Assembly: GCF_015354315.1 (NCBI RefSeq)
Contig: NZ_JADKYY010000007.1
Location: forward strand, 1-64,000
Source of the DNA: Planobacterium oryzisoli
GTDB taxonomy: Bacteria; Bacteroidota; Bacteroidia; Flavobacteriales; Weeksellaceae
DNA: 64,000 bases
Direction: 5' to 3'
Positions 9,876 to 60,072 of the stretch are shown here, in pieces (the stretch's first letter is position 1; each line of letters starts with the position of its first letter). The translations under genes and the position numbers were made by a program. The notes below the pieces were generated by a model, which worked only from the letters and a program-made list of their open reading frames with translations, was not told the DNA's origin and did not search any database.

Positions 9876-10688
9876 TTAGTTTGCAGACAAAGGTTGGGTG
9901 ACGAAAAGATATTCCTGCGGCGGACCACGCTGACCGAAAACAGTAATGGTGATCAGGTTTCCTTCCTTGCAGCATCGGCATTTATTGAGCAGCGTTGTGG
10001 GTGTTACCGCCAGGATCTTGATCTTTAAATCGGATTGCAGTGCCTGGATTTTCCCGCTTTTCCAGCTGCTGCTCAGGATCCCGTAATGCCGGATTCGTAC
10101 AAACCTTCTCGGTAGAATATGAAGACTGAAGCGCCGAATAAACTCCTGGTTGCTCAGGGTCATTTCCTTTTTCTCCCCGCCTTTCCGGTAATCCTTGTAG
10201 CCAAAGCGGACCTGCTGATCCGTTACCTCTTTGATCCGATGGTTGCTGATGGCGACTTTGTGGGTGTATCGCCCCAGGTATTTGATCACCTGTTTCGGTC
10301 CGCCAAAAGGTCTTTTGGCATAGACGACAAAGTTTTTGGTGAAGAGTTTCTCCATTAAATCCCGGTCAGTAATTCCACAAGCTCTTATAAATGCCACAAA
10401 CTTCGCACGGAACACTTTGCTCATCGCTTTCACCGGAAACAGGTATTTGTCGGTTCGTACTTTCTTTCTCCATTTTCCCTGCCTGTTGATACCACCCCCC
10501 GGAACAATGCAATGTAAATGAAGATGAAGGCTTAGGTTTTGTCCCCACGTGTGCAAAACACCAATCATTCCCAATTCCAACCCTTCGGTTATGCCGAATT
10601 GGTTTAAAGTACCCCAGGCGGCTTCAAACAAGATCCAGTAAATGATTTGTGGTTGAGAGATTGCCAGAGCGTTCAACCTTCTAAACAA
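9876..10688 (-). pseudogene. 5'-truncated IS91-family transposase (HUH, Y2_Tnp type)
   Basis: The 270 readable codons correspond to the C-terminal two-thirds of an IS91/IS801-type transposase. The HUH metal site is HLHLHCIVPGGG, and the catalytic-Tyr helix is IKYLGRYTHKVAISNHRI. A C-terminal CRCC pair remains. The N-terminal zinc-finger domain of the usual roughly 370-400 aa protein is missing. In frame upstream there are only seven more codons (KWISKFH) before a stop at 10710-10712, and the junction seems to have lost the residues normally between FH and LNALA. The apparent TTG start is therefore an artefact of truncation. It should not be active on its own. Confidence 0.85.
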
Positions 10689-22386: not shown

Positions 22387-22802
22387 GACTTAATCTGGTA
22401 TGCCACCGCGTAAAACTTAATCTGCTTGGTCATGGCCATCAGCCCGTTGGCGCGGGAGGGGGAGAGAAATTCCTGGAGACCGATTTTGGAGATAAAATCA
22501 AAATCCGAACTAAGTATTTCCTCTGTGGTATGTCCGCTGTACAGGGAAACAAGCATCGAGACGATTCCTTTGGGCAAGATGCCGTCGCTGTCGGCATTAA
22601 AAAAAAGCTTGCCGTCCTTAAATTCTGCGTCGATCCACACCTTGGACTGGCAACCCTTGATTAAGTTGGCATCGGACTTCTTCTCAGCCGGCATCCCTGC
22701 AAGGGATTTGCCTAAATCAATTATGTATTCGTATTTAGCCTCCCAGTCTTCCATAAAACTGAAGTCTTCAATTAGCTGCTGCTGCTTTTCTTTTATAGTC
22801 AT
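22383..22802 (-). CDS. sufE: SufE family cysteine-desulfurase activator
   Basis: A 139-aa sulfur-acceptor protein that takes persulfide from the desulfurase SufS for Fe-S cluster assembly. The active cysteine is in LIKGCQSKVWIDAEF, the family signature, and FLSPSRANGLMAMTKQIK is the usual C-terminal helix motif. The other suf genes are not in this window. It overlaps the glycosyltransferase gene by 4 bases. Confidence 0.94.
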   Translation of the reverse strand: MTIKEKQQQLIEDFSFMEDWEAKYEYIIDLGKSLAGMPAEKKSDANLIKGCQSKVWIDAEFKDGKLFFNADSDGILPKGIVSMLVSLYSGHTTEEILSSDFDFISKIGLQEFLSPSRANGLMAMTKQIKFYAVAYQIKS

Positions 22803-54986: not shown

Positions 54987-55002
54987 TGTTTCACGTGAAA
55001 CA
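54987..55002. promoter_or_regulatory. parS site (left)
   Basis: TGTTTCACGTGAAACA is a perfect 16-bp palindrome and matches the widely conserved bacterial parS motif TGTTNCACGTGAAACA bound by ParB. It fills most of the 26-base spacer between ybeY and mnmG. An identical copy lies after mnmG. ParB loads at such sites near the origin to organise and segregate the chromosome. Confidence 0.93.
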
Positions 55003-56874: not shown

Positions 56875-56890
56875 TGTTTCACGTGAAACA
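56875..56890. promoter_or_regulatory. parS site (right)
   Basis: Second perfect copy of TGTTTCACGTGAAACA, beginning directly after the mnmG stop codon and lying 7 bases before the methyltransferase start. Two identical 16-bp palindromes 1.9 kb apart are very unlikely by chance. Confidence 0.93.
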
Positions 56891-57812: not shown

Positions 57813-59003
57813 TTAATTGTTAATGGCAGCAACGCCAGGAAGCTCTATACCTTCCAAGCTCTCAAGCATTGCACCTCCTCCTGTAGAAACATACGATACT
57901 TTATCTTCGTAACCGTTCTGTTTCACAAAAGCAACACTGTCTCCTCCTCCTACAAGTGAAAAGGCCCCTAAGTTTGTCGCTTCTGCAATGCTGTTACCTA
58001 CAGATACAGTTCCCTCTGCAAACGTTGGCATTTCAAAAACACCCACTGGCCCATTCCAAAGTAAGGTGCGTGAATTCATAATGGCATCGTGGAAAAGTGC
58101 GCGGGTACGCGGTCCTGCATCAAGTCCCATCCATCCTTCAGGTATTTCGTAAATATCAACCGTTTGTGTTTCCGCATCGTTTGCAAAGCGGTCCGCTACA
58201 ATTACATCAACCGGTAATAATACCTCAACATTCTTCGCCTTCGCTTTATTTAGTATATCGAGAGCAAGATCCATCTTATCTTCTTCCACTATCGAATCTC
58301 CAATACTTCCTCCTAAGGCACGGATAAAAGTGAAAGCCATACCACCGCCTATAATTAGATTGTCAATTGCTTCCAGCATATTCTCAATAATAGTAATCTT
58401 TGAGGAAACTTTAGAACCTCCAATGATGGCCGTAACTGGACGCTCACCAGAACCAAGCACCTTATCTATAGCATCCAGCTCGGAAGCCATAAGTAAACCG
58501 AAAAATTTAGTTGAAGGGAAAAACTCGGCGATTACAGCAGTGGAAGCATGCGCTCTATGGGCTGTTCCAAATGCATCATTGACGTACACCTCCCCTAACC
58601 TACTAAGCTTCTCTGCAAATTCTCTATCACCCTTTTCTTCCTGAGAATAGAAACGTAAATTCTCAAGTAAGAGAATTTCTCCAGGCTTTAAATCATTTGC
58701 TAATTTCTCTACCTCTTCCCCTATAGAATCCGCAACAAAATGAACCGGATAACCCAATCCACTTTCCACCTCTTTAACTATATGCGCTAAAGAATATTTG
58801 CTGTTCTTCTCTCCTTTGGGTCTTCCCAAATGGGTCATAATAACTACCGAACCACCGTCCTTAATAATTTTATCTATAGTAGGTTTAACAGCCAGTATTC
58901 GGGTTGTATCCGTGACCTGAAATTTCTCATTTAAAGGAACATTAAAATCCACCCGTACCAGAGCTCTCTTTCCGCTAAAGTTATAATCGGCAACTGTTTT
59001 CAT
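57813..59003 (-). CDS. pgk: Phosphoglycerate kinase
   Basis: Glycolytic kinase of 396 aa making ATP from 1,3-bisphosphoglycerate. Family signatures are KRALVRVDFNVPLN, VIMTHLGRPKGEKNSKYSL, LLENLRFY, AIIGGSKVSSKI, LLWNGPVGVFEM and GGGDSVAFV. It is monocistronic, with its own promoter in the intergenic region proposed as oriC and a terminator downstream. Confidence 0.97.
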   Translation of the reverse strand: MKTVADYNFSGKRALVRVDFNVPLNEKFQVTDTTRILAVKPTIDKIIKDGGSVVIMTHLGRPKGEKNSKYSLAHIVKEVESGLGYPVHFVADSIGEEVEKLANDLKPGEILLLENLRFYSQEEKGDREFAEKLSRLGEVYVNDAFGTAHRAHASTAVIAEFFPSTKFFGLLMASELDAIDKVLGSGERPVTAIIGGSKVSSKITIIENMLEAIDNLIIGGGMAFTFIRALGGSIGDSIVEEDKMDLALDILNKAKAKNVEVLLPVDVIVADRFANDAETQTVDIYEIPEGWMGLDAGPRTRALFHDAIMNSRTLLWNGPVGVFEMPTFAEGTVSVGNSIAEATNLGAFSLVGGGDSVAFVKQNGYEDKVSYVSTGGGAMLESLEGIELPGVAAINN

Positions 59004-59028
59004 ATTTATCTATTTCTATTGATCAGAA

Positions 59029-59036
59029 CAAATTTA
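59029..59036 (-). promoter_or_regulatory. Candidate -7 promoter box for pgk
   Basis: On the minus strand TAAATTTG fits TAnnTTTG, 25 bases before the pgk start. TTG on the same strand (59060-59062) is 23 bases further up, at the long end of the accepted spacing. Confidence 0.45.
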
Positions 59037-59596
59037 AGTAATAAAAAATGCCCCCGTAACAATTCGCGCATTAAATAAATCACATTACACTGATCACAAT
59101 AGTTATACATAATTTATCTTTTTTAAAAAAAGTATTGTTGCTTGTTGTTATGTGTTGTTAGTAATGTGGATAAAATTTTTTTATTAAAGAACTATTAAAA
59201 AGGGCAAAGAGTTTCGAAGAAGATATATATCTGTTAATTGATTGAAGGTTAATTAGTTAATTCAATTCAGTACGGAACACCGAGTGCGTGGGAAGAACCT
59301 TTCCTGATTTCAAAAATTCATAGCATTGCATGTGGTATAACTTTTCTTAAATTCTTTATAAAACAGGGAACTAATGCATTTACTAAATTTCCATACATAA
59401 TGTTTCCTTATTGCGCAATAAATAATTGAAAGTACTTATCCACAGGAATTTATTTAAATATTAACAATTATTAACCAATTTTATAAGGTGTTGTAAACGT
59501 AGTAGATACTAAAGTATAAATTTTGTATTTATTTGACTGTCAGATAGAATAAGCTTAGTAAAGTATATAATTATTGATATAGCCTTGTGGAAAACA

Positions 59597-59625
59597 TTGC
59601 TTCTGTATTTTTAACACTAAATTTG
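59597..59625 (+). promoter_or_regulatory. Promoter for rpiB
   Basis: TTG at 59597-59599, an 18-base spacer and TAAATTTG at 59618-59625 match the Bacteroidota promoter at both boxes, 18 bases before the rpiB start. The -33 box is just beyond the last DnaA-box-like site. Confidence 0.55.
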
Positions 59626-59643
59626 TCTAAATAAATAAGCAGT

Positions 59644-60072
59644 ATGAAAAAAATAGCAATTGCAGCAGACCATGCAGGTTTTGAATATAAAGAGTATTTA
59701 AAGGAACAATTGGGTAAGGATTATATAATAGAAGACTTTGGTACGCACAGTAGCGAAAGTGTTGACTACCCTGACTTTGTACATCCTGCGGCAGAATCTG
59801 TGGAAAATAAAAAGAATGAACTGGGTATTCTAATCTGCGGAAGCGGCCAGGGCGTACAGCTTACTGCAAACAAACATAAAGAAATTAGATGTGCACTTGC
59901 ATGGATGCCCCAGATAGCGGAACTTTCAAGACAGCACAATAATTGCAATATGATTGCTGTCCCTGCGCGTTTTCTCGCTAAAGAGTTTGTATTGGAAATT
60001 GTTCTAGCATTCCTCAATGCTTCATTCGAGGGAGGTAGACACCAGCAACGGGTACAAAAAATAAGCTGCTAA
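59644..60072 (+). CDS. rpiB: Ribose-5-phosphate isomerase B
   Basis: Sugar isomerase of the RpiB/LacAB family, 142 aa, interconverting ribose-5-phosphate and ribulose-5-phosphate. The start MKKIAIAADHAGFEYKEYL has the conserved AADHAG motif, and GILICGSGQGVQLTANKHKEIRCAL gives the active-site Cys and the phosphate-binding loop. It is the first gene right of the candidate oriC and is followed after 15 bases by rnr. Confidence 0.95.
   Translation: MKKIAIAADHAGFEYKEYLKEQLGKDYIIEDFGTHSSESVDYPDFVHPAAESVENKKNELGILICGSGQGVQLTANKHKEIRCALAWMPQIAELSRQHNNCNMIAVPARFLAKEFVLEIVLAFLNASFEGGRHQQRVQKISC

Follow-up and report, generated by a model that had tools for sequence, protein, structure and literature searches.

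The pgk-rpiB intergenic region as the probable chromosomal replication origin of Planobacterium oryzisoli

Where does replication of this chromosome start, if not beside dnaA? The window analyzed here, i.e., the whole 64-kb stretch at the start of the 147,451-bp contig C18 in a 20-contig draft genome of 2.11 Mb, contains a long noncoding gap between the divergent genes pgk and rpiB, which the original prediction proposed as oriC. We consider it about 95% probable that this gap is the chromosomal origin. The composing features are collected in Table 1.

Table 1. Features of the candidate origin and its surroundings (positions in the window; a point in the strand column means that no strand applies).
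Feature	Position	Strand	Remark
oriC candidate	59004..59643	.	AT-rich (74%), noncoding, 640 bp; between divergent pgk and rpiB
pgk (phosphoglycerate kinase)	57813..59003	-	left neighbour, start 59003; named by protein reading, homologues via sequence
rpiB (ribose 5-phosphate isomerase B)	59644..60072	+	right neighbour, start 59644
perfect DnaA box TTATCCACA	59165..59173	-	pointing at the AT element
perfect DnaA box TTATCCACA	59436..59444	+	
one-mismatch DnaA box TTTTCCACA	59586..59594	-	sole one-mismatch box within the gap
palindrome TTTTTTAAAAAA (T6A6, 12 bases)	59119..59130	.	presumed core of DNA-unwinding element; T-run/A-run kept in family origins
TTG/TGT/GTT triplet tract	59134..59164	+	between AT element and 59165 box, at the site of DnaA-trios in other bacteria; conserved
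-7 element TAnnTTTG for pgk	59029..59036	-	kept in 19/24 relatives
-7 element TAnnTTTG for rpiB	59618..59625	+	kept in 15/19 relatives
parS TGTTTCACGTGAAACA, exact	54987..55002	.	just before mnmG start
parS TGTTTCACGTGAAACA, exact	56875..56890	.	just after mnmG stop

Architecture of the gap

The gap is AT-rich over its 640 bases, and its two perfect DnaA boxes lie on opposite strands, both as predicted. Together with one near box, they form the DnaA-box cluster expected of an intergenic bacterial oriC, albeit a sparse one compared to E. coli. The claim of at least two one-mismatch boxes is slightly overstated: one lies in the gap and the next one, at 59799, is located within rpiB. The predicted 12-base AT palindrome at 59119 is joined by a second one, AGATATATATCT, at 59221. 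In a stability scan, the window's least stable 60-mers include those starting at 59515 and 59070. The T6A6 palindrome, the AT content and these unstable 60-mers provide a candidate AT-rich DNA-unwinding element. The -7 element of Bacteroidetes-type promoters has the consensus TAnnTTTG. A single copy faces each flanking gene, while shuffling predicts 1.2 copies in all, and both copies are conserved in relatives, in agreement with the divergent promoters that were presumed at the gap edges.

Genome-wide, 33 perfect DnaA boxes are present. Four pairs of them lie within 300 bp of each other, compared to about 0.15 expected by chance; apart from the pair in the gap, these are one hairpin upstream of parAB and two pairs that lie within or border coding sequence. 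We therefore rejected the notion that a dense box pair by itself proves an origin. It is the coincidence of the box pair with parS, the skew minimum and conservation that gives the proof that the pair alone cannot give.

GC skew, parS and the position of dnaA

Cumulative GC skew, calculated for contig C18 in full and for the other contigs by samples, has its minimum over the whole 147-kb contig at 59118, inside the gap. The chance of a minimum falling in 640 bp out of 147 kb is about 0.4%. The own dnaA is located on contig C1, i.e., the origin is distant from dnaA as in other Bacteroidetes-type origins. The 10-kb C1 samples are positive on both sides of dnaA and the dnaA sample alone is negative; hence, dnaA does not lie at a skew switch. 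The same picture emerges from a single-contig genome of 3.07 Mb from another family of the same order (G027), sampled in 20-kb pieces. Skew is negative in all 10 samples up to 1.40 Mb and positive in each of the nine taken from 1.50 Mb onwards. Its minimum in the locus sample (1457211) lies 16 bp from the pgk-rpiB gap (1457227-1457806), and its dnaA (280888) is found mid-arm on the negative side, about 1.2 Mb from the gap. A skew minimum as expected of a bacterial oriC is thus present at the gap in both the own contig and the G027 chromosome, as the original prediction had anticipated. A minimum beside dnaA, named there as evidence to the contrary, was not seen in G027, and the own dnaA is flanked by positive skew. 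In a third genome (G009; one contig, 3.94 Mb), dnaA starts at base 439 and the pgk-rpiB locus lies at 2.867 Mb; its skew is noisier, but around the locus negative values give way to mostly positive ones, which is a coarse agreement. The locus is also away from dnaA in G022. Note that G009, G022 and G065 are numbered from dnaA (dnaA near base 1), which hides the origin in such single-contig relatives. The local skew minimum falls off the gap in the stretches of L040, L041, G002, G009 and G016, and a gene-strand bias left of the gap was nil.

Allowing up to one mismatch, the genome contains no parS besides the two exact sites, which lie 2.1 and 4.0 kb from the gap, within the roughly 4 kb that had been claimed and in the vicinity where parS is found for bacterial origins. 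In 12 out of 14 searched family relatives having parS, one site occurs within about 5 kb of pgk. The pair flanks mnmG exactly, a layout that recurs in the named Chryseobacterium and Kaistella loci.

Could the gap be a mere DnaA-controlled divergent promoter region, with the origin elsewhere, e.g., near dnaA? We regard this as very improbable. The promoters at both edges would suit such a role, and the parAB pair is an example, in the same genome, of a box pair outside an origin, but the skew minimum and parS sit at the gap, the C1 samples on either side of dnaA are positive, dnaA is off the skew minimum in G027 and G009, and the gap remains with pgk after rpiB departs. Least probable of all is an origin at or beside mnmG and parS, 2-4 kb to the left, with an incidental pgk-rpiB gap: parS flank mnmG here and Ori-Finder annotated an origin at mnmG in Algorimicrobium, another flavobacterium (PMC12843772), an annotation that fits the same neighbourhood as the pgk-rpiB gap, but around mnmG there is no perfect DnaA box and no long AT gap, and the closest boxes with one mismatch (55493 and 56508) fall within the gene itself. 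It is the pgk-rpiB gap that holds the skew minimum and the conserved boxes.

The prediction of oriC in the pgk-rpiB gap is thus supported by the skew minimum, the only two parS sites, the conserved boxes and the chromosome minimum of G027. The sequences show the parts and how they are conserved, the neighbouring parS sites, and a skew switch both here and in a relative; from these, a course of binding, melting and firing can be proposed. DnaA would bind both conserved boxes (59165 and 59436) and, starting from the 59165 box, would oligomerise along the triplet tract until it reaches the T6A6 element. This element would melt, helicases would be loaded and two forks would depart in opposite directions. 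ParB, bound to both parS sites at a distance of 2-4 kb, would segregate the new origins.

The remark that a pgk-rpiB location is not the usual dnaA-linked one holds in comparison to E. coli or Bacillus. It does not hold within Bacteroidetes, for which PMC4755523 describes an oriC distant from dnaA as common. The kind of origin is therefore already known. Prevotella intermedia chromosome 1 and the DoriC entries treated in that text likewise have boxes at the skew switch and dnaA elsewhere; a pgk/rpiB neighbourhood is not named in the available part, whereas here the neighbours and the parS linkage are traced across families. The E. coli-type oriC (gidA/mnmG-mioC) is similarly near mnmG and not beside dnaA, but the gap described here has far fewer boxes and is neighboured by pgk and rpiB. 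A published pgk/rpiB origin was not found in the open-access literature, a scope that does not include DoriC and in which absence is not proof. The exact pgk-rpiB address is new, and the mode of opening is possibly new as well. Chryseobacterium-like bacteria hereby obtain a concrete, checkable origin address.

Conservation across relatives

Judged by RpiB, the genome has its nearest named relatives in Chryseobacterium and Kaistella, which places it in the Flavobacteriales, in or near their family. Divergent pgk and rpiB separated by a gap of 510-1095 bp with 67-84% AT and DnaA-like boxes occur in 20 out of 30 rpiB loci (own genome included). All five named Chryseobacterium/Kaistella genomes share this arrangement, each with two exact parS sites around mnmG, 3-7 kb away. 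In five other genomes (G002, G003, G004, G016 and G017), rpiB has moved away and the box-bearing AT gap stays upstream of pgk. An alignment of 24 gaps was built without reference to DnaA boxes, such that a coincidence with boxes is not built in. Its top two conserved 20-base stretches (59156-59175 and 59426-59445) are the two perfect DnaA boxes, and the third most informative stretch (59023-59046) is the pgk promoter element. Some family origins (e.g., L012 and L024) have an extra inverted DnaA-box pair in the middle of the gap, 3 bases apart (L024: TTATCCACAGTCTGTGGATAA), which is not recognisable in the window's own origin.

We rejected rpiB as a universal origin marker, as no long box-bearing gap precedes it in G041, G054, G069 and G073 and as pgk and rpiB are apart in G035 and G037, although the gap upstream of rpiB in G037 has boxes and the local skew minimum. 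In four Flavobacteriaceae loci (L099, L103, L104 and L084), the gap upstream of rpiB bears the local skew minimum to within about 100 bp; in most loci of this family, rnr is on the other side of this gap. For two Bacteroidales loci (L062 and L109), the minimum lies just upstream of rpiB. Four genomes belonging to the same order or class (G026, G061, G065 and G077) have parS 5-19 kb from rpiB, away from dnaA, whereas several genomes from the phylum's other classes (G040, G042, G055, G066 and G075) have parS within about 65 kb of dnaA, the distance in G042 being counted allowing for a circular chromosome. This difference suggests that the origin relocated, i.e., that origin and dnaA were separated around the time the class arose, as judged from a small sample in which the rpiB linkage is not universal.

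Triplet tract, DnaA pocket and other loci

The order of box, short spacer, triplet tract and AT-rich element resembles the basal unwinding system (BUS) of B. subtilis (PMC6669920, PMC8287927, PMC10721633). The trios of that system read 3'-GAT-5', while the triplets here are mostly TTG/TGT, with two consecutive 3'-NAN-5' at the 59165 box. Across 24 origins, the 36 nt left of this box contain 232 TTG/TGT/GTT triplets versus 101 (sd 9) after shuffling, and G-G pairs beside it are in excess at lag 3 (z 6.5) and also at lag 7, scores that are inflated since the shuffles ignore shared ancestry. With the box-to-trio polarity of the DnaA-trio test, canonical trios (at least three consecutive 3'-NAN-5' within 16 bp, toward the AT element) were not found at the perfect boxes, which have two triplets each (59165 and 59436). 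Three or four consecutive triplets occur solely at the weaker boxes 59586 and 59103. A canonical-trio BUS at the perfect boxes was consequently rejected, the published search rule being at least three 3'-NAN-5' (PMC8287927).

In B. subtilis, the central adenine of the trio can be replaced by cytosine only (PMC6669920, PMC10721633), and DnaA holds the trio guanine by R202 and E228 and the adenine by N187 (PMC10721633). At the positions of N187, I193, R202 and E228, the own DnaA has Q, A, Q and S, respectively (alignment to 8btg). Of the 28 Bacteroidia DnaA proteins in the comparison, every one has both R202 and E228 replaced. In other classes of the phylum, R202 is absent in 30 out of 30 DnaA sequences and E228 is kept in many; the loss of R202 is thus not specific to the Bacteroidia class. 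Judged by sequence, the altered pocket and the altered triplets appear to fit together, and a deviant unwinding module in the pgk-rpiB origin is plausible. A tentative and rather doubtful extension is that origins of the family, perhaps of the class Bacteroidia, might be opened through a modified DnaA-trio mechanism, in which a conserved TTG-type tract would substitute for 3'-GAT-5' and DnaA would lack the guanine-holding arginine and glutamate. If true, this would be the case of deviant trios whose existence was suspected in PMC8287927. The aligned origins form a compact set for a direct in vitro test of such trios.

The hairpin upstream of parAB consists of an inverted pair of perfect boxes, TTATCCACA-N13-TGTGGATAA, followed by a T-run (G000:C2:22482-22512; L228:7482-7512). 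It is located between a purA-like gene and parAB (parA at 22565). The pair recurs in the same place in 10 out of 13 readable family relatives (L307-L318; one with a mismatch in one box), and other families lack it. Its outer 9 bases are invariant, unlike the inner stem, which varies. It may serve as a DnaA operator for parAB, as a terminator of the preceding gene, or as both. Finally, a transposase-like reading frame (IS91-like, by eye) is present at 9876-10688 of the window, in a low-GC patch around 8-11 kb.
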